64,000 nt of DNA, from positions 1 to 64,000 of the forward strand of contig JAPLHB010000052.1 of NCBI GenBank assembly GCA_026389845.1, written 5' to 3'. The position numbers were made by a program, and so were the translations under genes. Shown in pieces: positions 1,836 through 26,892 of the stretch. Position 1 is the first letter of the stretch, and each line of letters opens with the position of its first letter. Below the pieces are notes generated by a model. That model did no database searches and was not told the origin of the DNA. It worked only from the letters and a program-made list of their open reading frames with translations. Source of the stretch: Chloroflexota bacterium. Lineage in GTDB: Bacteria > Chloroflexota > Anaerolineae > CG2-30-64-16.

Positions 1836-2891
1836 TCAATCCCCGCCAACCGTGCTCACAATCACCCTCACGGCCCCCGCCGCGGCCAGCGCGTCCGCCA
1901 CCCGCGGCGCGGTCTCCTCCGTCACCAGCGCGATCAGATTCCCGCCGCGGCCACCGCCGGAGAGCTTGGCGCCGAGCGCGCCGGCCGAGCGCGTGGCTGC
2001 GGCCAAGGCATCCAGCTCCGGGCACGAAACGCCGATCTGCCGGAGCAAGGCGTGGTTGGCATCCATCAGTTGCCCCAACTGCTCCACCTCGCCGCGACTG
2101 ATGACCGTGGCCGCGTCTTCGACGATGGCCGCCACCGCGTCGAAGAGCCACTCGAACCGGGCGCGATCTTGCTCCCACGCCCGCCGCACGTCCCCCACCG
2201 CGATTCTGGTGGGGCTGGCGATGCCGCTGTCGGCAATCGCCAGCATGAAGGGCCGGCCAATCGGGAAGGGCCGAGGAGGTTGGCCGCGCACGAAGTAGAC
2301 CGGTTGGCCGTAGGCGATGACCGTGTTGTCCACCCCGCTCGGCGTGCCGTGGTGGAGCTTTTCGACTTCGTAAACGAGCGCGGAGACGTCGGCGGGAGTT
2401 ATTGCGCACTGCGTATTGCGTATTGCGTATTGCCGGTTCGCTGGTTCGCCGTTCGCTGATTTGCTGATTTGCCGATTTGCCGATTTGCCGATTTGCCGAT
2501 TTGCCGACACCGCCACCGCACGCACGATGGCCGCGGACACCGCCGCGCCGCTGCCCATGCCGCTGGCGATGGGGATGGTCGAGCGGACGGTGACGCGCCA
2601 GTCGAGGCTCCCCTGCTCCCCTGCTCCCCTGCTCCCCTGCCTCCCCGCGGCCGCCAACGCCAGCCGGACGGCCGCGGCCAGGGGGTCATCGGCCGCGGCG
2701 TCCCGCAGCGCGATCTCCTCGCCCAGGTCGGCCGCGCAAATGACCAGCCCCGAACCGGGCGCGCCGGCCTCCACGATCGCTTCGGCCTGCACCTGCGTCA
2801 CCGGCACGGCCAGCGCGGGCCGGCCGTAGACGACGGCGTGCTCACCGAACAGGATCACCTTGCCGGGCGCGCGGCCGACGCCGAGGATCAT
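1836..2891 (-). CDS. mvk: Mevalonate kinase with repeat-derived insertions
   Basis: This GHMP-family kinase of 351 residues phosphorylates mevalonate with ATP in the cytosolic mevalonate route to isoprenoids. Visible motifs are the N-terminal APGKVILFGEHAVVYG, the ATP-binding loop PIASGMGSGAAVSAA, HGTPSGVDN, and the C-terminal KLSGGGRGGN. The start is the ATG at 2891, where similarity begins; it overlaps the stop of the upstream TIR-STAND gene as ATGA, implying coupled translation. Residues about 128-164 are a surplus block with the SANRQIGK period, encoded by an octamer/heptamer array. Residues about 83-95 (GSRGAGEQGS) come from a run of 10-bp CTCCCCTGCT-like units. Both sit in loops, so the enzyme may still fold. 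A mevalonate pathway is known in several Chloroflexota. An IS lies just downstream. Confidence 0.92.
   Translation of the reverse strand: MILGVGRAPGKVILFGEHAVVYGRPALAVPVTQVQAEAIVEAGAPGSGLVICAADLGEEIALRDAAADDPLAAAVRLALAAAGRQGSRGAGEQGSLDWRVTVRSTIPIASGMGSGAAVSAAIVRAVAVSANRQIGKSANRQISKSANGEPANRQYAIRNTQCAITPADVSALVYEVEKLHHGTPSGVDNTVIAYGQPVYFVRGQPPRPFPIGRPFMLAIADSGIASPTRIAVGDVRRAWEQDRARFEWLFDAVAAIVEDAATVISRGEVEQLGQLMDANHALLRQIGVSCPELDALAAATRSAGALGAKLSGGGRGGNLIALVTEETAPRVADALAAAGAVRVIVSTVGGD
2402..2508. repeat. Heptamer + octamer array inside mvk
   Basis: About 30 bp of GCGTATT heptamers (2402-2433) runs into degenerate octamers and then five exact copies of GATTTGCC (2466-2505). The array is read in frame by mvk and adds about 36 residues. 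The octamer contains no stop codon in any of six frames, and because 8 is not a multiple of 3 every frame on one strand gives the same 8-residue repeat. Confidence 0.95.
2608..2645. repeat. CTCCCCTGCT decamer repeat inside mvk
   Basis: Three to four near-identical 10-bp units of the form CTCCCCTGCT lie in frame within mevalonate kinase and encode a Gly/Ser/Arg/Gln-rich loop. Confidence 0.8.
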
Positions 2892-5800
2892 GCGGCCTCC
2901 AACTTCGCCAGCAGCGTGCTCGCCTCGTCGTACGCCACCTTGTACGTGCCGTCCGGCGGCCCATCGCACTCCGCCAGCCGCCGCGCGGCCTGCGCATGTC
3001 GCAACGCCTCCGCTCGATCTCCCCGCGCCATCTCGATCTCCGCCAGGAACAGGTGTACGTCCGCGCCCTGCAGCACATACCCGCTGCGCTCGGTGATGAC
3101 TAGCGCCTCCCCCGCCAACCGCAACGCCTCGGCACGCAACTCATCTCCCCCGCCCCCCTGCTCCCTTTCTCCCTCTCTCCCCTCGTCCCACCGCACCCGC
3201 GCCAGATCGAGCAGGATGTCCGCCTCGTGATCCACCAGGTTGATCCCCCGGCAGCGGGCCAGCGCCTCGGTCAGATGGCGGTCGGCTTCATCCGGATCGC
3301 CGGCCGCTCGCAGCGCCGCGCCCAGCAGCCAGTGGGCACGGACGTAGTCGCGTTCGGACGGGAATCGGACGCGAGCTGTCTCATCCGCCAGCTCCAGCGC
3401 GCGGCGGGCGGCTCGGACCCCCTCCCCTGCCCCTCCCCCGTTGCGACGGGGGAGGGATCGGGTGGGGGTAAGATCCCGCGCCATCAGCAGCGCGGCCAGG
3501 GCACGGTAGGCCCATGTCACGCCAACACCCTGCACTGCCTTCTTCTTCTCAAACGCCCCCAACGCCGCATCCAGCTCCCGCTTCGATTCCGCCAACGCGC
3601 CCCGATAGGCCAGCAGCTGGCCCAACGCGGCGTGCCCGACCGCCTCCCGGAACTCGTCTCCGATCTCCCGGCACAGGGCGATCTCGCGGCGCAGGTTGGC
3701 CTCGGCCGCGGCCAGCGCACCGAGAGGCATGTAGGCCACGGTGGCTACGGCCCCCAGGCCGATGGCGAGGTTCTCCTTGTCGCCGCGTTTTTCGTCAATG
3801 GCGTTGCCTCCTTCGAATAGCGGCACCGCCCGGGCCGGCTGGCCGCTGAGGCTGTAGGAGTTGGCCAGCGCGGTCAGCGTCCAGGCCTGGTCGCTCTCCT
3901 TCGTCAGCCGCGGCGGTTTGTCCTCACCGTCGGGGAAGAGACCGGCCAGGAGCTCGATGCGCAACTGGTAGGCGCCAAACTGGTAGTAGGTGGCCTGGCT
4001 GATACGGTCTCGGAACAGCGTGATCGCCTCATCATACTGCCCTGCGGCCACCGTGTGGTGGTACAGCTCGATCACGGGCGCCAGGTCGTCCAGCGTCCGC
4101 ACCTGCTCCGGCGGCGGCACCGCGGCGAAGTAGTCGCGCAGGCGGCGGTGGGCCGCGGCGCGGTCATCACCGGCCAGGCGGTCGTATGCGTAGCGCCGTA
4201 CGATGGGGTGAAGGTCGAAGCGGTTGGTCCGGTGGTCGCGGTGGAGGAGGCCGCGGGAGAGGAGGTCGTGTAAATCCGCGTCTAGGTCGTAGGGGCGGGT
4301 CTCCGGCGCATCTGTCCCGGAACGCCCGCGCTCCACGGATGCCTGTTCGTCGGCGAACGATTCGCTGCCACGTGACCCGCCCAATGTCGCATCCGCGGCG
4401 ACACGTCCATCCGCGCGTCCACCGCGACCAAACAGGCGGTTCAGGACGCCGGGGCGCGGGGGGCGGGTTTGGTTGGCCGGTTGTGCGTCGCTTGCCGTTG
4501 ATGTCACGGTCGCCGCGCCGCCGCGTTCGCCGGGCATCACAAACCCGCCCCTACGGTCGGCCAACGCGGCCAGGGCCTCGTACCCCACCGGCCCGCGGAA
4601 GCAGGCGATGCGGCTCAACAGCCGTCGGCGGTCGGGGGGCAGGCTCTCGTAGGCCTGTTCCAGGACGTGGTGCTGGCGCTGCACGAGGTAGGGGCGACCT
4701 TCGCGGTCGCCCCCGGCCACGTCCAGCCGCCGCGCGGCCGCGATGTCGCCGGGCTGGCGCAGGTCGTTGGTGACCAGGCCGGCCAGCAGGCGCAGGCTCA
4801 ACGGGTGGTAGCCGTAGGGCGCGCAGGCGGCCTCGATCTCGGCGCGGCCGCCGCGGATGCCCTGGCCGCGGAAGAACGCCACCGCATCGCCGGGATCCAT
4901 CTGCGTCAGCTCCCGCTCACAGCAGCCCAGCAGCAGCTCCTCCCCATGCCCCTCCACGATCCGCGGCCGCAGCCGGGTCGTCATCAGCACCTTGCCGCGT
5001 AGGCCGGGCAGGGTAGCCAGGGAGCGGAGGAAGTGCTCGGCGACGGGGGAGACGCAGTCGCGTTCGGATTGCGGATTGCGGATTGCGGATTGCGGATTGC
5101 GTATTTGGCTCTTTGCTGATTCGCTGATTCGCTGATTCGCCGATTCGCTGATTTGCCGATTTGCCGATTTGCCGATTTGCCGATTTGCCGATTTGCCGAT
5201 TTGCCGATTTGCCGATTTGCCGATTTGTTGATTCGTCTCATCCCCCTGGTACGCGGCCATCAGGCTGCTGAAGGCGCGGAGGGCGCGCTCGAAGCCGTCG
5301 AGGATGAGGAGGGTGCCGGGCTGGCGCAGGAGGGTGAGCAGCGCGTCGGCCTGCTGCCGCGGGCCGGGGAAGCGACGGAGGTCGGCGCCCAGGTAGGTCA
5401 GCGTCTCACGCAGGAAGCTGTCGAACTGGTTATCCCCTTCGTAGAAGCTCCACCAGACCGCGCGGGGCCAGCGGGCCGCGTCCACGTCGTGACTCAGCCA
5501 GTGCCAGGCCAGCGCGCTCTTGCCGAACCCGCCCAGCGCACGCAGCATCAGCAGCGGGTGGCCGGGATCGCGTTCCAGCCAGCCGCTCAGCATCTCCCGC
5601 TCGGCGGCACGGCCGGTGAAGTTGGGCTGCGCACCGTAGGGGTGCGGCAGGAACCAGCCGGGCCGCTCGGGCGCGGGCGGCGGTTCCTGGATGGGCGCCG
5701 CGCCGAGCGCGGTCAGGAGTTGGGTCCACGGCCAGGCCGGGTCGTCGGGGTCGGCGAAGTTGACGTAGGTGAGCGCCCGCAGGCGCGGCGGGAGATCGCA

Positions 5801-13966: not shown

Positions 13967-15730
13967 CTAAAACGTCTTCTGGAACACCAGGTTGAACGAG
14001 TTGTGGAAGAGTGTATTGCCGCCTCCGCCCTCGCTGCAAGCGGCCTCGTCGGTGAAGTTCGAGTGCACCGGCTGGGCAATGTCGCTGCTGGCGGGATTGA
14101 CGCCATCCTGCGAGACGTACACGCCATATTCCGCGCCCTTCCACAAGACGAATTCGGCCAGCCCGGGCCCCTTCGTGCCCGAGACCGTTTTGTCCAACAC
14201 GTTGCCAGGTTGACCGGCCGGCGTCTGTACCAGGATCACGCCATCCACCGGGTTGCCGGCCGCGTCTACGATCTTGATGAAGACGTTGTGCTTGCCGCGA
14301 TTCTCGCACGGCGTCATCCGTCGCATCTCGACCAGCTTGAACTGGACTGAGGGCTTTGCGGGCGCGGCAGCCGCGGCGGCGACCACGGGCGCTTCCTGCA
14401 CCACAATCGGCGCCGGGACCGGCGTCGGTGGGATCGGTGTCGCGGTCGGCGGGATCGGCGTGGCCGTGGGTGTGAAGGTCGGCGTCGGCGTCGGCGTATT
14501 CGTGGGCGTCGGCGTCGGCGTGAAGGTCGGCGTCGGGATGGGGGTCTCGGTCGGCCAGGGCGTGTAAACGGGGGTGGCCTGCACGGGCAGGTCGGCTGCC
14601 ATCGCCACCTTCACCACGCGATCGCGGACCCCGGCGCGGGCGACCGAGCTGGTGGCCTGTGAGGCGACGCTGTTGGCAGAAAGCAGCGAGAGGATCGCCG
14701 ACGGTGCAACGACCCCCAGCAGCCAGATCAACAGGATGATGACCGCGACCAGGCGCAGCTTGGCGCCCGTGCTGCGCGCCCCGAACCAACTGGTGGCGGT
14801 GTTGGCCGCGTGGCCCATGCCCATCACCGCGCCGGTTACATCGGTCGTCCGCCTGACTTGCGCCTCCGAGGGCATGGTGTAGGCAGTAGGCGCCGGCGCG
14901 GGGGCCATGACGACGCTGGTCACAGCACGCTCGGTATTCTCACGCAGGCGTTGGCTCAACAGACGGCTCAAGTTCAACGCCAGGCTGGGATAGCGGAGGA
15001 CGAGGGTCTCGAAATCGGTCCGGCCCAGTGACCACGCAACGACATCTGTCTGCGCCACCACGTAGGTGCCGTGCGCCTCGCCGGTGAGCAGCGACGTCTC
15101 CCCGAAAAATTCGCCCGGCCCCAAGGTCCCCAGGGTCTGGATGGCCCCATTGGCCATGCGGGCCTCCACACTGACCTGGCCCGACTCGATCAGGTGGAGC
15201 GCCTCTCCCGGCTCGCCGCGGCGATAGATCGCCCGGCCGGCCGCGAACTGCTCCGGGCGCAGGTGGCTGGCGACCTCGCCGACCTGCTCGCGCGTCAGCC
15301 CGTTCATCAGGGTTAGTCGGCGCAGATGCCGTTCGGTGAATTGGTCGTCGGTGACGCCCGCCGCCGATTTCAGCAATCGGCCCATCTGTGGGTCCTGCGC
15401 CACCAGCCCGGCCAGGTCGAGCGCGCTGAACGCGAATAGCTCGACGTTAGTCGCCGCCTCGGCCGAGAGGGTGTAGTTGCGGCCCACCAGCACATCGGCT
15501 TCGCCCAACACGCTACCCGGCCCCAGGGTTGCCAGCACCGCGTACTGGTCGTTGATCAACCGCACCCGGCCCGAATTGACCAGATACATGGCCGCGGCGG
15601 TCTGGCCCTCGGCAAAGACCGTGTCGCCGGCGCGCCGGGTCTCCGATGTCATCCGGCACGCGATCAAGTCGCGCTGACCGTCGGTCAGCTCCGCAAACAG
15701 CGGGGCGTTAGCGATCATGTCTTCTTTCAC
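13967..15730 (-). CDS. Membrane protein: twin cNMP-binding-like domains inside, stalked domain outside
   Basis: The 587-residue protein starts with two Crp-like cNMP-binding folds (residues about 8-125 and 130-255; LGPGSVLGEADVL and LGPGEFFGETSLL are the phosphate-cassette positions). The Arg that binds cyclic phosphate appears replaced by Tyr in the first and His in the second, so ligand binding is doubtful or altered. A single membrane helix (about 325-345) leads to a Thr/Pro stalk (about 385-445) and a roughly 120-residue outer domain (DAAGNPVDGV, GTKGPGLAEFVL, DGVNPASSD, ending VFQKTF) shared with the next gene upstream. No signal peptide is seen, so the N-terminus should be cytosolic. 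The GTG start at 15730 has AGGGGAG in front. A signal-out sensor or a regulated surface protein are possible; function unknown. Confidence 0.8.
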   Translation of the reverse strand: MKEDMIANAPLFAELTDGQRDLIACRMTSETRRAGDTVFAEGQTAAAMYLVNSGRVRLINDQYAVLATLGPGSVLGEADVLVGRNYTLSAEAATNVELFAFSALDLAGLVAQDPQMGRLLKSAAGVTDDQFTERHLRRLTLMNGLTREQVGEVASHLRPEQFAAGRAIYRRGEPGEALHLIESGQVSVEARMANGAIQTLGTLGPGEFFGETSLLTGEAHGTYVVAQTDVVAWSLGRTDFETLVLRYPSLALNLSRLLSQRLRENTERAVTSVVMAPAPAPTAYTMPSEAQVRRTTDVTGAVMGMGHAANTATSWFGARSTGAKLRLVAVIILLIWLLGVVAPSAILSLLSANSVASQATSSVARAGVRDRVVKVAMAADLPVQATPVYTPWPTETPIPTPTFTPTPTPTNTPTPTPTFTPTATPIPPTATPIPPTPVPAPIVVQEAPVVAAAAAAPAKPSVQFKLVEMRRMTPCENRGKHNVFIKIVDAAGNPVDGVILVQTPAGQPGNVLDKTVSGTKGPGLAEFVLWKGAEYGVYVSQDGVNPASSDIAQPVHSNFTDEAACSEGGGGNTLFHNSFNLVFQKTF

Positions 15731-15749
15731 AACGATTCTCCCCTCACAA

Positions 15750-15800
15750 GCAGCAAATCAGCGAATCAGCGAATCAGCGAATTGGCGAATCAACGAATCA
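15750..15800. repeat. GAATCAGC octamer array
   Basis: Units of GCGAATCA fill the gap between two minus-strand genes. The stop codon of the upstream SH3 protein (15798-15800) lies inside the last unit. Confidence 0.85.
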
Positions 15801-17147
15801 GTAGGCTCGTTGAAAAACGACGTCCCACGAGTAGTGCCCGTGGCAACCGTTTTGCCTCACGAAATGAGCGCAATCCTCGGCGTTCTTGCAGAATCCGCTC
15901 CCCATCAGAATTTCTGTGGGGATCGCCGCTGGGTCGGTACTCATGCCGCGGGCATAGTCGCTGCTGGGCTGATGACCGTCCACATCGCGCACGATGAAAG
16001 CGTCTTGACCACCGCCGAGAATGAATTCTGCCACCCCCGACCCTTTGCTGCCGGTCACATCTTCTTCCTGATTGCCGTAGGCAACTTTGACGGTGACGCC
16101 GTTAAGCGGATTGCCCGCAGCATCCTTTACCAACACCCGCAACTGGCGTTTCTCGCCGCAGTGCACCGATGAGCCGTCGAGAAAGCCGCCATTTTCTTCT
16201 ACGCCCCAAAGTCGCTTGCTCACGAATCGGAACTCTGGTCCGGCCGGCTTGGGCGTCGCCGTGGGCGGCGCGGGGGTGAAGGTGGCCGGCGGAGCCGGAA
16301 TATCCTTGGCGACCGGGACCGCGTCAATCGGCCCCTGCACCTTGACTACGGTGCCGGCGACCCACGCCTGGCCGGCGCCTTCCACGGCTACCTGCCACCA
16401 ATCGCTGCCCGCGGTGCGGCCGATGATGTTTACTTCCTGCCCGGTTTGCAGTTCACCCACCAGTGGGTAGTTCACGCCGGGGCCGCCGCGTAGATTGGCC
16501 GCGCTCGGAGCTACGACGTGCGGCCGCGGCGTCGGCGAGGGTGAGGCGGTCGGCGCGATGGTCGGCGGGATGGCGGTCGGCGTGGCGGTGGGTGGCAAAG
16601 GTGTCGCGGTCGGCGGCGTTGTGGGACTGGGCGGCGCCGGAGTCGGCGACGGCGGGACGGCAGTGGCAGTCGGCGCCAGGTAGGCGATCAGCCGGGAGCT
16701 GTGTGCGCCCAGGGCTTCAGCCAGGCGGGCCAGCGGGATGATCTCCGCGGACGGCCGGCCTTCGTTGACGCTTTGCTCGGCTAGAGTGACCAGCAGTTGC
16801 GTGGGATTCGCCAGCCCCAGTTTGTCCAGGCTGGCTTGTGCCGTGGCAAGATCGGCATCGCGTGCGTAATCGGCCGCGATGCGCTGCAGGCTGGCATCGC
16901 GTTCGGCCTGCGACAGCGATGTGCGTTTATCGGTCTGCGCGCAACTCGTCAACATCAGGCTGACGAGCAGCAGGATGCTGAACGCAAGGAACAGCAAACC
17001 AGGCCAACGGCCCTGGCTCGTGCGGCGGACTCGCCGGTCTATTCTGAGCATACGATCATCATGGGGCAAAAAATGAGGGGCGTTGTCATCTTGCGTGAGC
17101 GAGTCTGTGCGCTCCGTAAGCGATCCTGCCCCGGTGGTCTCATTCAT
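15798..17147 (-). CDS. Membrane-anchored SH3b protein with the shared exported C-terminal domain
   Basis: The 449-residue protein has a 47-residue charged N-terminus, one hydrophobic helix (LLFLAFSILLLVSLMLTSC), a helical region, a Pro/Thr stalk (about 160-205), a bacterial SH3 domain (ANLRGGPGVNYPLVGELQTGQ... WWQVAVEG, about 212-270), another stalk, and a final 130-residue domain. That last domain matches the one in the following cNMP-like protein (DAAGNPLNGV, TGSKGSGVAEF, DGHQPSSD, ending VFQRAY). SH3b domains often bind cell-wall peptides. The Cys after LMLTS could be a lipidation site if a later start such as ATG 17051 is used; the start at 17147 is provisional. It is co-directional with the cNMP-like gene and separated only by an octamer array. 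Confidence 0.78.
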   Translation of the reverse strand: MNETTGAGSLTERTDSLTQDDNAPHFLPHDDRMLRIDRRVRRTSQGRWPGLLFLAFSILLLVSLMLTSCAQTDKRTSLSQAERDASLQRIAADYARDADLATAQASLDKLGLANPTQLLVTLAEQSVNEGRPSAEIIPLARLAEALGAHSSRLIAYLAPTATAVPPSPTPAPPSPTTPPTATPLPPTATPTAIPPTIAPTASPSPTPRPHVVAPSAANLRGGPGVNYPLVGELQTGQEVNIIGRTAGSDWWQVAVEGAGQAWVAGTVVKVQGPIDAVPVAKDIPAPPATFTPAPPTATPKPAGPEFRFVSKRLWGVEENGGFLDGSSVHCGEKRQLRVLVKDAAGNPLNGVTVKVAYGNQEEDVTGSKGSGVAEFILGGGQDAFIVRDVDGHQPSSDYARGMSTDPAAIPTEILMGSGFCKNAEDCAHFVRQNGCHGHYSWDVVFQRAY

Positions 17148-17233
17148 TTGGATTCACCCATGCGCTGCATCCGTTCTTTGGGATAGAATAGGATCACTGC
17201 TATAATGCCGCCGCATGAGTTTAGCATAGTGAG

Positions 17234-17316
17234 TGCCGAAGGTGGGAATCGAACCCACATGGGGCAACCCCCAACGGTGTTTGAGACCGTCGCGTCTACC
17301 TTTCCGCCACTTCGGC
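17234..17316 (-). tRNA. tRNA-Leu (CAA)
   Basis: On the minus strand the 83-nt sequence folds with acceptor GCCGAAG/CTTCGGC, anticodon stem ACGGT/ACCGT around CTCAAAC giving anticodon CAA, a long variable arm, and T arm GTGGGTTCGATTCCCAC. It reads UUG leucine codons. The discriminator is A, and CCA is not encoded. Confidence 0.95.
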
Positions 17317-17408: not shown

Positions 17409-18146
17409 ATGTTGCTGCTACGCTTCCTATCCCCGGCCGCGCCGGCCCCGATTCAGCAGGCGCTTCGCCTGTTGGGCCTATCGTCGCGAATGCCGGTTCT
17501 CTTCGCCTCCTGGGACGGCTGGGGCGACCGCGCCACGCGTCCTACGCCGCCGCGCCGGCCGGAATACGACGAGCAGACGCTCATCGCAGCCGCCCGCCGT
17601 GGCGATCTGCCGGCCTTCAACCAGATCATCCTCCACTACCAGGGCCTGGCCTACAACGTGGCCTATCGCATCCTCGGTGACGGCGACTCGGCCTCCGACG
17701 CAACCCAGGATGGCTTCATCAAGGCGTTCCAGCGGCTCAATCAATATCGCGGCGGGTCGTTCAAGGCGTGGATGTTGCGCATCGTCACCAACACCTGCTA
17801 CGACACCCTGCGCGCCCACAAGCGCCGGCCCACGACTTCGCTGGAAAAAGAGGATGAAGACCCCGAGCACGACAGCAAGCTGCAAGACCCGGCCGAGCGG
17901 CCCGACGCCTATGCGCTGCGCCACGAGTTGGCGGTCGCGATCCAGGCGGCCATCGTTAAACTGCCGCCGGATCAGCGCGCCACGCTCGTACTTTCCGACA
18001 TCGAGGGGCTGGATTACCAGGAGATCGCCGCGGCCACCGGCGCGGCGCTGGGCACGGTGAAATCGCGCCTCAGCCGCGCCCGCGCCAAGCTGCGCGACCT
18101 GCTGCTGGCCCAGGGGGAACTATTGCCCGCGCGGTATCGTCTGTGA
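17409..18146 (+). CDS. ECF-type RNA polymerase sigma factor
   Basis: The protein (up to 245 residues) directs RNA polymerase to a stress or envelope regulon. Region 2 is seen in FNQIILHYQGLAYNVAYRILGD and ASDATQDGFIKAFQRLNQYRGGSFKAWMLRI (split here by family convention), and region 4 in LPPDQRATLVLSDIEGLDYQEIAAATGAALGTVKSRLSRARAKLR. An acidic linker (KEDEDPEHD) separates them. Conserved sequence begins around residue 50, so the ATG at 17490 is as likely a start as 17409. The cognate anti-sigma gene follows after a perfect hairpin, and the pair should form one transcript. Confidence 0.9.
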   Translation: MLLLRFLSPAAPAPIQQALRLLGLSSRMPVLFASWDGWGDRATRPTPPRRPEYDEQTLIAAARRGDLPAFNQIILHYQGLAYNVAYRILGDGDSASDATQDGFIKAFQRLNQYRGGSFKAWMLRIVTNTCYDTLRAHKRRPTTSLEKEDEDPEHDSKLQDPAERPDAYALRHELAVAIQAAIVKLPPDQRATLVLSDIEGLDYQEIAAATGAALGTVKSRLSRARAKLRDLLLAQGELLPARYRL

Positions 18147-18236: not shown

Positions 18237-20198
18237 ATGAGATTCTCGATAACCAACCCGCAACGTGCGCACGTGAGCGCCGACCTGCTCTCGGCCTACC
18301 TGGACAACCAGGCGACGGCCGCAGAGCGGGCGCGGGTTGACGCGCACCTGGCGACCTGCGCCGCCTGCCGGACCGAGCTGGACAGCCTGCGGCAGACGGT
18401 GGCGCTGGTGCGCGCTCTGCCCCGCGTGGCTGTCCCGCGCGCCTTCACCCTGTCGGAGGCGCGGGTCGGCATCCGCCGGCCGGCGACGCAGCCGGGGTGG
18501 TTCGGCGGCGCGCTGCGCGGGCTGGTCGCGGCGACCGCGGTCGCCTTGGTGGTCGTGGTCGCAGGGACGCTGCTGCGCCAGATCGGGAGCAGACCGACCG
18601 GCCAGCTCGCCCTGGCGCCCGCGGCCACGGCCGCCCCGGCCGCGCTTTCCTCCGAGGCCGGACCGGCCGCCGCACCCAAGCCGATGATGGCCGCCCCGCC
18701 CCAGCCCACTGCCGCTCCGACGGTCGCGGTCGAGAAGGTCGTAGAGATGCCATCCCAGGCGCCCGCGCCAGCCGCCGTCAAGCCGCAGGCGCTCGCGCCG
18801 CGGCCCACGCCGGCGCCTGCGATCATCCCAACGCCGACGACTGCCCCCGCAGCCAAGGCTGCGGCGCCGGTCGCGCCGATCCCTGGGAAGCCCACGACGG
18901 CCGCCGCGGCCCCGACGGCGACCGCGGCGGTCATGGCGGCGGCCGCCGCGGCCACCACTGCGCCCGCGCGTGCCATGCCGGCCGCCGATCTTGGCGCCCG
19001 CGAAGGCGGCGGAGCGAATCAGGCTGCTCTCACCCCGGAGGCGGCACCCGCGCCCGCGGCCATCACCGCCACCCTGCCGGCTGGTGCGGGTGTCGCTTAC
19101 GCGGATCTTAAGGGGCTATGGACGCTCGACCGCGAGACCGGCGCCCGGCAGATCGTGAGCGGCGAGGGGATCAGCAGCCCAGCCATTTCGTTGGATCGGG
19201 CGTGGATCGCCTACCGCGTGCTCCGGGGCGACCATTTCGAGCTGTGGGCCGTGCGTTGGGACGGCAAGGACGCGCGCCTGCTGCTCGCCGAGCGCGATCT
19301 GCCGAAGGATGACCTGGCCGCGGGCTACAGCGAGCGGCGCTTCGGCGACGTGCGTTGGATCCCCGGCGCAGCAACCCTGGCGCTCAACGTGACCGTCATC
19401 CCGACTGCCGGCGATGTGCCGCCCACGTTCGAGCTTTGGATGGTGGACGCCCGGACCGGCGCGCGGCGCCTGGCGGTCAAGATGGACGCCGCCGCCCGGC
19501 CCATCTTCTCGCCCGACGGCCAACGCTTCGCCTTGCTTCAGCCCGCCACCGAAAAGACTCGCGAGGGCAGCCTGGCGATCTACAACGCCGACGGCACGGC
19601 CGGCCGCGTTCTGCTTAAGTTCGCTCGCGGCCTCGCCCCGCGCTTCTACGAAACGCAGGCGAGCTGGCTGCCCGACGGCAAGACCCTCCTGGCCGCGGTC
19701 ACCGACCCGGCCGACTCGCCGGAGCAGCTCAACGGCATCACGCTTTACCGCATCGGCGCGGACGGGCAGGCCAAGTCTGCCGGACACGTGGATGCGTTCG
19801 ACTCCTTCTGGTCACCCGATGGGACGCGACTGGCGTACACGCGGGCGGTGAATAACTCGGTGGACACGCGCGAGTTGTGGATCGCCAATGCCGACGGGAC
19901 GAATCCTCGACAGTACGCGATGTTGCGCAACGGCGTCTTCGTCAACTGGTCGCCCGACAACGTCCACTTCATCTATGCGGATGCTAATCAGGTCTACCTG
20001 GGCGGGATCAGCCAGGCCCCGCGCTGCATGGGCAACGCGGCCAGCGTGTTCGATCCGCGCTGGATCGGGCCGGGCCAATTCGTACACCTCCACGACCAGA
20101 ACACCGGTTGGATGCTGGTCTCGCGTACGGTGAACGATCAAGCTGCCAGCCTGCTACTGCTGCCCCGCGAAGCCACCTACGACGTGACGCGACCGTAG
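18237..20198 (+). CDS. Transmembrane anti-sigma factor with outer beta-propeller
   Basis: This 653-residue protein has an N-terminal zinc-finger anti-sigma domain: HVSADLLSAYLDNQAT, then HLATCAACRTEL, the H-x3-C-x2-C of ZAS/zf-HC2 proteins. A membrane helix (GLVAATAVALVVVVAGTLL, about 98-117) is followed by a roughly 160-residue Ala/Pro/Thr linker. The C-terminal 350 residues have repeats like WSPDGTRLAY, FSPDGQRFALL and WSPDNVHFIY, the TolB/PD40 propeller signature, predicted to be outside. Signals sensed by the propeller would release the sigma factor encoded just upstream. The two genes are separated by a 26-bp perfect hairpin that could lower anti-sigma output relative to sigma. Confidence 0.88.
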   Translation: MRFSITNPQRAHVSADLLSAYLDNQATAAERARVDAHLATCAACRTELDSLRQTVALVRALPRVAVPRAFTLSEARVGIRRPATQPGWFGGALRGLVAATAVALVVVVAGTLLRQIGSRPTGQLALAPAATAAPAALSSEAGPAAAPKPMMAAPPQPTAAPTVAVEKVVEMPSQAPAPAAVKPQALAPRPTPAPAIIPTPTTAPAAKAAAPVAPIPGKPTTAAAAPTATAAVMAAAAAATTAPARAMPAADLGAREGGGANQAALTPEAAPAPAAITATLPAGAGVAYADLKGLWTLDRETGARQIVSGEGISSPAISLDRAWIAYRVLRGDHFELWAVRWDGKDARLLLAERDLPKDDLAAGYSERRFGDVRWIPGAATLALNVTVIPTAGDVPPTFELWMVDARTGARRLAVKMDAAARPIFSPDGQRFALLQPATEKTREGSLAIYNADGTAGRVLLKFARGLAPRFYETQASWLPDGKTLLAAVTDPADSPEQLNGITLYRIGADGQAKSAGHVDAFDSFWSPDGTRLAYTRAVNNSVDTRELWIANADGTNPRQYAMLRNGVFVNWSPDNVHFIYADANQVYLGGISQAPRCMGNAASVFDPRWIGPGQFVHLHDQNTGWMLVSRTVNDQAASLLLLPREATYDVTRP

Positions 20199-22973: not shown

Positions 22974-25900
22974 TCACCACCCCACCCACGGCAGCCACAG
23001 CCGCGGCGCCGCGGCGGTCGGACGCACCGTCACGCTCGTCAGGCCGAGCGCCTGAATGCCTCCGGCCAGGTCCACCGCTTCCAATCGGTACCAGTAGGTT
23101 CGGCCTCCTTGCACATCGCGATCGCTAAACGCGTAGGTGTGCCCGTTTGCGGAGCCGGGGGCCGCGCTGGGGATCAGCCCCGCGTCCAGCCGCTGCCACG
23201 GCCCCGCGGCGCTTTCCGCCCGGTACAGGTGGAAGCCCTGCACGTCCAGCTCGCTGACCGTCTCCCACGTCACCACCACTTGGTGGCCGGCGACCGTGGC
23301 CTGGAAGTTCGCCAGCCGCACCGCCAGCGGCCCCTTGCTGCTATCCCCCACCGCCCAGTCCGAGAGGGTCGTCAATTCGGTGCGCGTGACCGTGTTGGCC
23401 GTGGCCGAGGTACGGCCGCACATCCAATTCGTGCCGCCGGTGTTGCGGCAGACGTAGGCGTTGGTGCCAGGGGTGGAGACGTTGTGCGGCAACGTCAGGT
23501 CAATGGTATAGCTGCTGCCGGTGGGTGTAATGCTCCAGTAGCGACCGGTCTGGGTGGCAGCGACGGCATTGGGATGGTTGCTGTCCACCCGATCCACCTG
23601 GAGCTGGCTCAGGCTGCCCTGCGTCGTCACGTTGACGCTCAGGTCGGCGCCATTGTAGCGCCCGGCCAGGCCGAAGGTCTTGCTCCCAGCGCCGGAGACG
23701 CTCTGTGTCTTGCGGATCGTGCCGCTGTTGGTCAGCGTGCCGGCCACGGTGACGTTATCCGCCGAGACGGTTTCCACCAACGTCACGCCGCTGTTGACGG
23801 TCAGGTTGTTGAAGGTGGTAGCAACGCTGGCGTCCAGGTTTTGCGCGCCGCTGCCGCTGAAGATCACCGTGCCAGAGTTGTGATTGAGCGTCCCGCCGCT
23901 GTTCGTGAGATTGCCCGTGAGCGAGAAGGTGTTCGCGCTCGGCGCGTTGAACGTTCCTGCGGAGAGGGTCAGGTTGCCGCTGAGCGTCGTCGCGCCGAGC
24001 AAGGTCAGGTTGACGCCCGAATCGAGTGAGACACTTTCGTTGTAGGTGCCAGCATGCACGTCCACACTCCCATTGACCATCACCGCATTGAGCGCGCCGC
24101 CGATGGTGGTATAGCAGGGGAGATTGCTGCCGCATGCTCCTCACTTTAGCCACGAACGCGTCTCGAATGCCGCCGTTGTGGGTGAGGTCGGGTCCGATGG
24201 TCACGGGGAAGGTCGCCTCGGTCGAGGCGGTGAAGCCCGTGACGTAGGCGTTGCCTGCTGAGTCCACCGCAATGCCCCTGCCATAGTCGTCGCCGCTGCC
24301 GCCGATGTAGCCCGCATAAACCAACGCGCTACCGCTGGCGTTCACCTTCGCCACGAATGCGTCCCCGATGCCGTTGTAGGTGACGTCGGGTCCCACCGCC
24401 ACAGGGAAGGTCGCTTCGGTCGACCAGGTGTTGCCCGTGACGTAGGCGTTGCCCGCCGTGTCCACTGCTATCCCATAGCTATTGTCGTAGTCGCTGCCGC
24501 CGATGTAGCCCGCATAAACCAACGCGCTACCGCTGGCATTCACCTTCGCCACGAATGCGTCCCAGCCGCCGTTGTGGGTGAGGTCGGGTCCCACCGTCTC
24601 AGGGAAGGTCGCTTCGGTCGAGGAGGTGTAGCCTGTGACGTAGGCGTTGCCCGCCGCGTCCACCGCAATGCCGATGCCATAGTCGGTGTCGCTGCCGCCG
24701 ATGTAGCCCGCATAAACCAACTCGGTACCACTGGCATTCACCTTCGCCGCGAATGCGTCCCCGCCGCCGTTGTAGATGAGGTCGGGTCCCATCGTCTCAG
24801 GGAAGGTCGCTTCGGTCGAGTAGGTGTCGCCCATGACGTAGGCGTTGCCCGCCGTGTCCACCGCGATGCCGTAGCCATTCTCGCCGCCGCTGCCGCCGAT
24901 GTAGCCCGCATACACCAACGCCGTGCCACTGGCATCCACCTTCGCCACGAATGCATCACTGCTGCCGTTGTGGGTGAGGTCGGGTCCGATGGTCACGGGG
25001 AAGGTCGCCTCGGTCGAGTAGGTGTTGCCCGTGACGTAGGCGTTGCCTGCTGAGTCCACCGCAATGCCGTAGCCCGATTCATAGTTGTTGCCGCCGATGT
25101 AGCCCGCATACACCAACGCCGTGCCACTGGCATTCACCTTCGCCACGAACGCGCACCTTCGCCACGAACGCGTCCCACGGGCCGCCGTTGTAGGTGAGGT
25201 CGGGTCCGACGGTCACTGGGAAGGTCGCCTGGGTCGAGTTGGTATCGCCCGTGACGTAGGCGTTGCCCGCCGAGTCCACCGCAATGCCGAAGCCACGGTC
25301 GTCAGCGCTGCCGCCGATGTAGCCCGCATAAACCAACGCGCTACCGCTGGCGTTCACCTTCGCCACGAATGCGTCTTCGCCGTCGTTGTGGGTGACGTCG
25401 GGTCCCACCGTCTCAGGGAAGGTCGCCTCGGTCGAGGCGGTGTCGCCCGTGACGTAGGCGTTGCCCGCCGCGTCCACCGCAATGCCGTAGCCATAGTCGT
25501 CGCCGCCGCCGCCGATGTAGCCACAGTAGACCAGCACGGTCGGGTCAATCACCAGCGGCAGTGCGGGGTTGTATGCGCCCACGTGGAATCCGTAGGGGCG
25601 CGGCTCGTCTGTGCCCACCTCGTCCGCGCCCCACCGCGCGGCATCCTCCAGCGCATAAGCCACTGCCACTGGCACACGCTGCCCCGCCACCTCTTGATAC
25701 GCCACAGGCGCGTCGTCCTGGAAGCCGCCCGCAGGCGTACTCACTTCCAACTGCCCCGCGTCGTTCACCCGCACCGTCGCGCCGCGATAGGCAAGGCGAA
25801 TGGCGGCGGGGTCAGCGCCGGGCTTGACCACGAATTCGTACTTCAAGCGATTGACCGTCCCGCTGTACACCAGGTCAATCCCCTCCCACAAATCGGGGTA

Positions 25901-26386
25901 GACGATTTGGGAGTAGGTCGGCAAGCCGGTGCGCCACTCGTCACGCGAGCCCTTGAAGTACGAGATGACCGCCTCGGTCTGCGCCTGCCCGCTGGGGCGC
26001 ACCGCATTCGCGTCCACGAAATCCAGTTTGACAATCCAACGACTCGATTCGTTGGGCGCGCTTGAGTACGCTTCTTGGGCGCTGAAGCGCCTACTACGAG
26101 CATCTGCAGACACCTTCTGGGTCAGCGCGAACGTGACGCCTTCGGACGCAAAGTAGAGTGTCTTGTCGCTGCCCTGGACGTAGTACGCGACACGGTCGTC
26201 CATCTGCCCCTGGTTGGCGATGAAGTAGAGGGGCATCTTGCCCCAATCGGGTTGGACGCGCGTGGTCGCGTAGTCGAATGGTCGCGTAGTCGCCGTGTGC
26301 GCGGCCGGCGCGCCCCACGCGCCCACCACCAGCGTCAGGGCGGTGATGAGCAACAAGCTTCTGCGTACGAGATGATAGGTGTTCAT
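22974..26386 (-). pseudogene. Exported SBBP beta-propeller protein, two frameshifts
   Basis: Read across two frame changes, this is one gene of about 1,130 codons. It starts at ATG 26386 (GGAGAGGAAC ribosome site) with a signal peptide (SLLLITALTLVVGAWGAPAAHT). An N-terminal domain (PDWGKMPLYFIANQGQMD) precedes at least seven SBBP repeats (GGS..D.GYGIAVDSAGNAYVTG) with an exact 198-bp period between 24301 and 25511. A beta-helix-like region, a fibronectin-like domain (YAFSDRDVQGGRTYWYRLEAVD) and the tail PRLWLPWVGW end it. The first frame change coincides with a tandem duplication: 17 identical bases at 25137-25153 and 25156-25172, spaced 19 bp. The second lies at about 24120-24150, between the last SBBP unit and GSNLPCYTTIGGALNA. 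Either both are assembly errors in a repetitive gene or the gene is inactivated. Confidence 0.8.
24301..25520. repeat. 198-bp tandem repeats encoding SBBP blades
   Basis: The marker GCCGATGTAG starts at 24301, 24499, 24697, 24895, 25093, 25313 and 25511. Spacing is 198 bp every time except one 220-bp interval, which holds the 19-bp duplication. Confidence 0.95.
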
Positions 26387-26439
26387 TTGTTCCTCTCCTT
26401 GTATCAGCGTGCCCCCTCGCCGGAGGGTGGATTCGCGTC

Positions 26440-26892
26440 TCAAATGCTATGAGCGGCACTGGTTCCATTGGATGGGAGCGCTACCAGTTGACGGAATTTG
26501 ACAGCATTTCCACCCGGAATCGCGGCATGATGGGTGCAATCGTGCTGGAAAGGCCAGCATTTTAGCCGATTCACGGCTTGGCGGCTGGAGAGGACGGTCA
26601 ACCCACTGTGGTTGGGGTCGCGGCCGATCATCAGCAGACACCGCTCTGAGGGGTTGAAGCCCGAAGGATCGGGATGGTCGTGCAGCAGGGAAAGGATGAA
26701 GCTGTCGCCACCCGCCTCGCCGCGCTCCACCAGCGCCACGTCCGGCCGGCGCGCGGCGAATTGGGTCAGTGCAGCGGGTTGGCGCGGGGCGAGGCGTGTC
26801 ACAGCCTGGTCGGGGCGGACGCCCAGGCTCTCGGCGAGGATGGTCAGCAACAGGGAGTCGCCGCAGCCGGCGACGCGGTGGGGTAAGATCAC
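26440..26892 (-). CDS. Small protein of unknown function, possibly receiver-like
   Basis: This 150-residue protein is supported by a strong promoter and by AAGGAG eight bases before the GTG at 26892. The N-terminal half (RVAGCGDSLLLTILAESLGV, then FAARRPDVALVERG) alternates strands and helices somewhat like a degenerate response-regulator receiver, with the PDVALVERG strand where the phosphorylated Asp would be; no Asp is at that place. The C-terminal half includes a Cys/His-rich piece (CWPFQHDCTHHAAIPGG). I do not recognise a family. It lies 53 bp upstream of the SBBP gene in the same direction and could be co-transcribed with it. Confidence 0.6.
   Translation of the reverse strand: MILPHRVAGCGDSLLLTILAESLGVRPDQAVTRLAPRQPAALTQFAARRPDVALVERGEAGGDSFILSLLHDHPDPSGFNPSERCLLMIGRDPNHSGLTVLSSRQAVNRLKCWPFQHDCTHHAAIPGGNAVKFRQLVALPSNGTSAAHSI

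Follow-up and report, generated by a model that had tools for sequence, protein, structure and literature searches.

Inside-out receptors, in which a cytosolic ligand alters an outer domain, are known, as exemplified by LapD (PMC3032553, PMC3032545). In the regulatory subunit of kinetoplastid protein kinase A (PKAR), a Glu at the position equivalent to Ala202 of PKA RIalpha and the loss of the phosphate-site Arg go with the binding of inosine, guanosine or adenosine (PMC10959531), and the pockets carry small residues (V, T, A or N) in place of the Arg (PMC6440977). Envelopes that are multilayered and lack outer-membrane markers occur in Chloroflexota such as Litorilinea (PMC13319060). Here we describe two adjacent genes in a 64,000-nucleotide stretch of DNA from a Chloroflexota bacterium of the class Anaerolineae (contig JAPLHB010000052.1 of assembly GCA_026389845.1, positions 1 to 64,000; hereafter the window). 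P_A joins two cyclic-nucleotide-binding (CNB)-like domains, predicted to be cytosolic, to a stalked outer β-domain, and P_B carries a homologous β-domain together with an SH3b domain. The pair is a copy of an undescribed envelope locus that recurs across the class, and it is this class-wide locus, with its new combination of domains, that is new here. No description of the architecture was found in open-access papers, although absence from comparisons with Pfam, with sequences and folds in the PDB and with the open-access literature is not proof of novelty.

Architecture of the two stalked proteins

A check of the open reading frames placed both genes on the minus strand, with the following features.

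13967..15730 (−): P_A, 587 residues; two CNB-like domains, linker, membrane helix, stalk and C-terminal β-domain (open reading frame, Pfam, AlphaFold2)
15350..15730 (−): P_A CNB domain 1, residues 1-127, orthologous to the first of the four domains of relatives (model predicted local distance difference test score, pLDDT, about 90)
14927..15349 (−): P_A CNB domain 2, residues 128-268, orthologous to the fourth of four (comparison with relatives)
14771..14926 (−): P_A cytosolic linker, residues 269-320, ending in WFxxxSxGAKxRL (AlphaFold2, orthologue alignment)
14681..14770 (−): P_A single membrane helix, residues 321-350 (hydropathy, AlphaFold2, orthologues)
14354..14680 (−): P_A Thr/Pro-rich stalk, residues 351-459 (composition, low pLDDT)
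13970..14353 (−): P_A C-terminal β-domain, A type, residues 460-587 (AlphaFold2, relatives in the class)
15798..17147 (−): P_B, 449 residues; signal with lipobox, helical region, stalk, SH3b, stalk and C-terminal β-domain (open reading frame, Pfam, hydropathy, composition)
16941..16997 (−): P_B hydrophobic signal with lipobox-like LTSC at its end (hydropathy)
16677..16931 (−): P_B helical region, residues 73-157 (reading of the sequence; no Pfam family)
16338..16517 (−): P_B SH3b domain (Pfam SH3_3, E 3.3e-9)
15801..16241 (−): P_B C-terminal β-domain, B type, residues 303-449 (hhalign to the A type)

A first-pass annotation, made from the DNA letters, had proposed that the two neighbours end in the same domain. 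This is confirmed by BLASTP (E 7e-11) and by profile-profile comparison with hhalign (99.9%, E 8e-33), values that exclude a chance resemblance. The AlphaFold2 model of the A-type domain, built from 63 sequences, has a pLDDT of 94.4 and a predicted template-modelling score (pTM) of 0.87. In Foldseek its neighbours are for the most part CNA-B/prealbumin-like domains from surface adhesins and from pilins, at TM about 0.5 to 0.6, the best being FbaB (E 2.8e-3, TMt 0.56) and CnaB2 (TMt 0.63). The model thus suggests a CNA-B/prealbumin-like sandwich, with fold matches that are weak and none below E 1e-3. Against Pfam no family scored above its cut-off, the weak matches being to Big_1, PF24025, DUF7382 and CarboxypepD_reg; the B-type domain reached 20.9 to 22.9 bits against Big_1 (PF02369), for which the gathering cut-off is 34.9. 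A sequence search of the PDB returned weak invasin-like or intimin-like matches alone (E 0.003 to 0.06). At the level of Pfam the domain thus belongs to no established family of settled function, an assignment that would have refuted the first-pass proposal, though the fold is of a familiar adhesin or stalk type.

The C-terminal domain has its own signature, CENxGKH...DxxGN...GxxxF...C...N..xHxS..V.F. In the aligned A type Cys17, Glu18, Asn19, His23, Tyr77, His118 and Ser120 are invariant and Cys107 is nearly so, and the two Cys likely form a disulphide, as predicted from the alignment. CNA-B/prealbumin-like domains are marked by a Lys-Asn/Asp isopeptide bond with a catalytic Glu; the A type has a nearly invariant Lys, for which the B type, as judged by eye, shows no conserved counterpart. 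The same genomes contain a wider form of the domain (profile-profile match to the A type, 99.6%), carried by one lipoprotein and by proteins that adjoin TIM-barrel, hydrolase-like proteins. Carriers of this wider form (L183, 3405-7956; L190, L191, L192, L194-L196, L202 and L205) have no evident signal peptide. The TIM-barrel, hydrolase-like proteins that lie beside the wider domain or bear it contain CarboxypepD_reg repeats and have in common a C-terminal YVLFGP...VTIIG region. Elsewhere in the genomes, short proteins of about 240-300 residues combine one membrane helix, a Thr/Pro stalk and an A-type domain (L147, L153, L154, L156, L157, L159, L162, L165, L166 and L169-L172), several of them adjoining a larger protein of a common cluster; the one such larger neighbour scanned (L142, 5128-6909) matched no Pfam family.

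P_A matches cNMP_binding (PF00027) in two stretches (Pfam E 1.8e-38; 130.8 bits against a cut-off of 27.5), the only family found in the Pfam scan, which revealed no GGDEF or EAL domain. The AlphaFold2 model of the whole protein (pLDDT 74.3, pTM 0.32) displays two CNB folds, a helix at 302-318, a membrane helix at 321-356, a disordered stalk and the β-domain. There is one strong hydrophobic segment (residues 328-346, mean hydropathy 2.72), and a hydrophobic segment separates the CNB array from the stalk in all 44 A-type proteins examined, so the membrane helix called in the first pass stands. A positive-inside bias flanks this segment in 38 of the 44, consistent with a single-pass membrane protein whose N-terminus is predicted to be cytosolic. 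The earlier proposal that cytosolic CNB-like domains are wired to an outer stalked domain is upheld to this extent, the assignment of domains to the inside and the outside following topology rules. A juxtamembrane WFxxxSxGAKxRL...G...P segment is conserved in nearly all A orthologues. Both sides of the helix appear flexible. Residues 274-307 have pLDDT below 50 and are modelled as disorder; the stalk, of which 42% is Pro plus Thr, has pLDDT below 50 over most of 356-455. Across the 44 proteins the linker from CNB array to membrane ranges from 50 to 368 residues and the stalk from 82 to 147, the very long, Pro-rich linkers (up to 368 residues) occurring in L091, L095, L132 and others.

In P_B a signal-like hydrophobic segment (residues 51-69) ends in the lipobox-like LTSC, from which the protein is probably a lipoprotein. 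Its SH3b domain (PF08239) scores 37.2 bits against a gathering cut-off of 27, in agreement with the first-pass assignment, and its stalk is even richer in Pro plus Thr than that of P_A (64% over residues 158-210). The helical region resembles, in sequence, the N-terminal part of other B-type proteins and of proteins of a third paralogue.

Conservation of the locus and its neighbours

The genes upstream of P_B complete a recurring arrangement.

17233..17316 (−): tRNA-Leu, anticodon CAA, just upstream of P_B (ARAGORN)
17409..18146 (+): extracytoplasmic function (ECF) sigma factor, divergent (Pfam Sigma70_r2 and r4_2)
18237..20198 (+): zf-HC2 anti-sigma factor with C-terminal PD40 propeller repeats (Pfam)

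The conserved order starts with tRNA-Leu(CAA), continues with between one and three genes for stalked B-type proteins and ends with the A gene; it is usually divergent from a pair encoding the ECF sigma factor and the zf-HC2 protein. A gene with the same C-terminal domain precedes A in 40 of 41 loci (A genes with at least 400 nucleotides upstream), with up to three such B-type genes per locus. Of the 27 loci for which at least 4.5 kb of upstream sequence was available, 24 have tRNA-Leu(CAA) ahead of these genes on the same strand, an association of this isoacceptor with the locus that holds across the class. The divergent sigma gene adjoins the first gene of the locus in nearly all loci in which it was identified. 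In the window and its relatives the protein with Sigma70 regions 2 and 4 stands next to a zf-HC2 protein, identifying a sigma/anti-sigma pair. In a tree, the neighbouring sigma factors from 24 loci cluster together (support 98) and separately from eight other ECF factors of the window genome, among which there are several long branches. The remaining neighbours of A vary between loci.

Relatives of the A-type domain were found in 91, and of the B-type domain in 74, of 298 genomes of the class. A search across the phylum matched at least 9 of 400 genomes, five of them outside the class, a figure that may be an undercount as scoring was limited to at most ten candidates in each genome. Almost all the named relatives are from Anaerolineae or Chloroflexota. 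The family proposed in the first pass is thus a real one, found across Anaerolineae in one conserved locus. Class-wide synteny and the orthologous sigma factor point to old vertical inheritance, and on these sequence comparisons the locus is apparently ancient. A phage or plasmid origin was rejected, as no relatives of the domain were matched in phages or plasmids and the locus is conserved across the class. The evidence for an ECF promoter common to the sigma and B genes was also discarded, the apparently enriched GGAAC/GGAAT...GTC pairs lying nearly all in the D-loop of tRNA-Leu.

The PD40 repeats of the window anti-sigma factor (18237-20198, +) follow a long Ala/Pro-rich stretch; no PD40 match was present in the anti-sigma factors scanned from other families of the class. 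Further along, 22974-26443 (−) holds adjoining, overlapping open reading frames in different frames with AKVNASGTALVYAGYIGG-type repeats, perhaps one surface protein split by frameshifts.

The CNB array and its phosphate-binding sites

In sequence comparison as in Foldseek searches the CNB array of P_A is most similar to the tandem CNB domains of PKA regulatory subunits (PKA-R) and PKG, with a Foldseek E of 1.8e-22 to PKA RIalpha. The first-pass annotation had noted two cNMP-like domains in which the phosphate-binding Arg is replaced, which comparison with PKA regulatory subunits and CRP bears out. In the phosphate-binding cassette of the first domain, GSVLGEADVLVGRNYTLSAEA, the Glu is retained, the Ala202-equivalent is Asp and the Arg209-equivalent is Tyr. 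In that of the second, GEFFGETSLLTGEAHGTYVVA, the Arg-equivalent is His and the Ala202-equivalent is Ser, leaving no acid at this position. The cassette Glu (E200 of PKA RIalpha) is present in both domains, and the cassette Arg (R209/R333 of cyclic-nucleotide binders) in neither. From these substitutions, P_A of the window has probably lost cyclic-nucleotide binding.

Most A orthologues contain four CNB domains (D1 to D4), compared with two in the window. Among 37 related four-domain orthologues the phosphate-site Arg is found in D3 of 34, D1 of 15, D4 of 10 and D2 of none, the residue in D2 being mostly His or Tyr. The D3 cassette also has its Glu in 35 of the 37. The window domains group with D1 and D4, indicating that the middle pair, D2 and D3, was lost in the window's family; as judged from this grouping, the sole steadily canonical site, D3, is deleted there. 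A relative from that family with at least three CNB domains (L107) has Tyr at the Arg position of its next-to-last domain. In D1 an acidic residue occupies the Ala202-equivalent in 29/37 four-domain and 6/6 two-domain proteins, and the Arg is replaced by Tyr or Phe in the two-domain proteins. D1 carries Arg plus Asp in 11 of the four-domain proteins. In another family of the phylum (genome G307), L186 encodes two adjacent, stalked, two-CNB proteins with an A-type domain (1874-3709 and 3736-5463), the first of which keeps the Arg in CNB1 and has His in CNB2.

Class III cyclases were found in 11 of the 16 genomes examined, and their presence does not clearly follow that of an intact D3. In this search, which covered class III, none was found in G056, a 94% complete genome whose D3 (L079) is intact in sequence. 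This patchy occurrence means that cAMP is not secured as the ligand, even for the orthologues.

The reading that we tentatively favour, at a probability of roughly 40%, is that P_A serves as a tether in the envelope and gathers a PKA-R-like array into clusters, the array having perhaps been gated by cyclic nucleotides in its ancestral form and probably no longer being so in the window's branch. P_A would tether the array through its flexible stalk to the outer CNA-B/prealbumin-like β-domain, and P_B would be a stalked lipoprotein presenting the same kind of outer domain plus SH3b. The outer domains may bind the wall, an outer protein layer or each other, and would thereby hold the cytosolic array in place and gather it into clusters. 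Where an orthologue still has an intact D3, binding of a ligand would probably change the self-association of the array or the docking of a partner, the signal passing by clustering or recruitment instead of a rigid push through the membrane. With the canonical site lost from the window's family, P_A would there be a constitutive tether or respond to a ligand other than cAMP or cGMP.

Several points weigh against this reading. The modelled outer domain resembles known folds weakly (best E 2.8e-3, TM about 0.5), and the occurrence of the wider form on proteins without an evident signal peptide suggests that the superfamily is not exclusively extracellular. The binding of the outer domains to wall or siblings is something that we infer. 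Counts such as 34/37 come from related orthologues and are not independent observations. The conserved juxtamembrane and membrane segment would not be needed by a passive anchor. Finally, the ligand, partner, function and localisation of P_A are predicted from sequence and models.

A purely structural role is doubtful, though a serious contender. The CNB domains would be decayed scaffolds that bind no small molecule, and P_A, P_B and their siblings would build or hold a multilayered envelope, with the ECF pair perhaps setting their expression. The disappearance of all canonical sites from the window's family, the Tyr at the Arg position in L107, the occurrence of as many as three sibling stalk proteins in a locus and the multilayered envelopes of Chloroflexota such as Litorilinea (PMC13319060) are all consistent with this explanation. 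Decay would, however, not be expected to leave D3 nearly canonical in the four-domain orthologues, with Glu in 35/37 and Arg in 34/37, nor does it fit the Glu still present in both window domains.

The sensor proposed in the first pass, a strict LapD-like device in which a cytosolic ligand alters the outer domain through the membrane helix and so acts on P_B or the envelope, is distinctly unlikely. The predicted topology, the conserved juxtamembrane and membrane segment, the near-canonical D3 of the orthologues and the precedent of LapD (PMC3032553, PMC3032545) speak for such a receptor. In the window, however, both sites are substituted and the canonical D3 is deleted, and in G056, with its sequence-intact D3 (L079), no class III cyclase was found in a 94% complete genome. 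Furthermore, the single helix is flanked on either side by long, variable and apparently disordered linkers (50-368 and 82-147 residues), which makes rigid LapD-like transmission unlikely, and the models likewise make a rigid conformational push across the membrane by P_A unlikely.

Signalling in the opposite direction is equally unlikely. Here the outer domain would meet a surface cue and the CNB array would dock, inhibit or release a cytosolic partner in the manner of PKA-R, the tandem domains that the array most resembles; the adjoining sigma/anti-sigma pair is by class an envelope signalling system. No partner kinase or enzyme is, however, constantly encoded beside A.

We regard as improbable a class-wide receptor family in which a mixed-pocket CNB array, with one pocket of cyclic-nucleotide type and others altered towards nucleosides or other ligands, would act by clustering across the membrane to control stalked outer domains of a kind also borne by sibling lipoproteins, with cyclic nucleotides abandoned altogether in the window's branch. 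Very improbable is a D1-type CNB1 pocket that binds a purine nucleoside or other non-phosphorylated ligand: the acid at the Ala202-equivalent of D1 (29/37 and 6/6), the change of Arg to Tyr or Phe in the two-domain proteins and the parallel with kinetoplastid PKAR (PMC10959531) would fit, but the window has Asp and Tyr where kinetoplastids have Glu and small residues, Arg occurs together with Asp in 11/37 D1 domains, and CNB2 has no acid at this position.

If the tethering reading is true, a conserved envelope locus of a widespread and poorly understood bacterial class links surface proteins to a nucleotide-receptor array of PKA-R type. Nature here supplies a series of proteins with four sites, with substituted sites and with deleted sites, from which one can ask what a CNB array does without its former ligand, and whether CNB domains have been redirected to other ligands in bacteria as they have in kinetoplastids.

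Comparison with known systems

The outer parts of the two proteins have partial counterparts. P_B has the lipobox-like signal, Thr/Pro stalk and SH3_3 match of SH3b lipoproteins, from which it differs in an extra helical region and in the C-terminal β-domain that it has in common with a CNB protein. With CNA-B/prealbumin-like and Big_1-like surface domains (FbaB CnaB2, BcpA, SpaC; PF02369; PF24025) the C-terminal domain shares, at weak similarity, a predicted β-sandwich on a stalk of exported proteins, but it falls below all Pfam cut-offs and has its own signature and two nearly invariant Cys residues.

P_A is like LapD-type receptors in that cytosolic domains of a nucleotide-receptor type are connected through the membrane with a domain outside. 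The LapD type, however, consists of a degenerate GGDEF-EAL receptor with a HAMP domain and with two membrane helices that enclose a periplasmic domain, a plan that P_A does not fit, as the Pfam scan shows no GGDEF or EAL domain in it, its membrane helix is single, its linkers are flexible and it has no recognised protease partner. The cAMP-independent PKA regulatory subunit of kinetoplastids (PDB 6FTF, 6FLO) is among the best fold matches and likewise combines loss of the CNB1 Arg with an acid at the Ala202-equivalent; P_A, however, has Asp where the kinetoplastid protein has Glu and Tyr where it has small residues, and this in one of two domains, making it a parallel and not membership. The closest relationship of the array is to the tandem CNB proteins (PF00027), PKA regulatory subunits and PKG, with which it shares the tandem fold and the cassette Glu. 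P_A departs from these in that the Arg is replaced in both window domains, its relatives usually have four domains, and the array shares its chain with a membrane helix and an exported domain, with no kinase.

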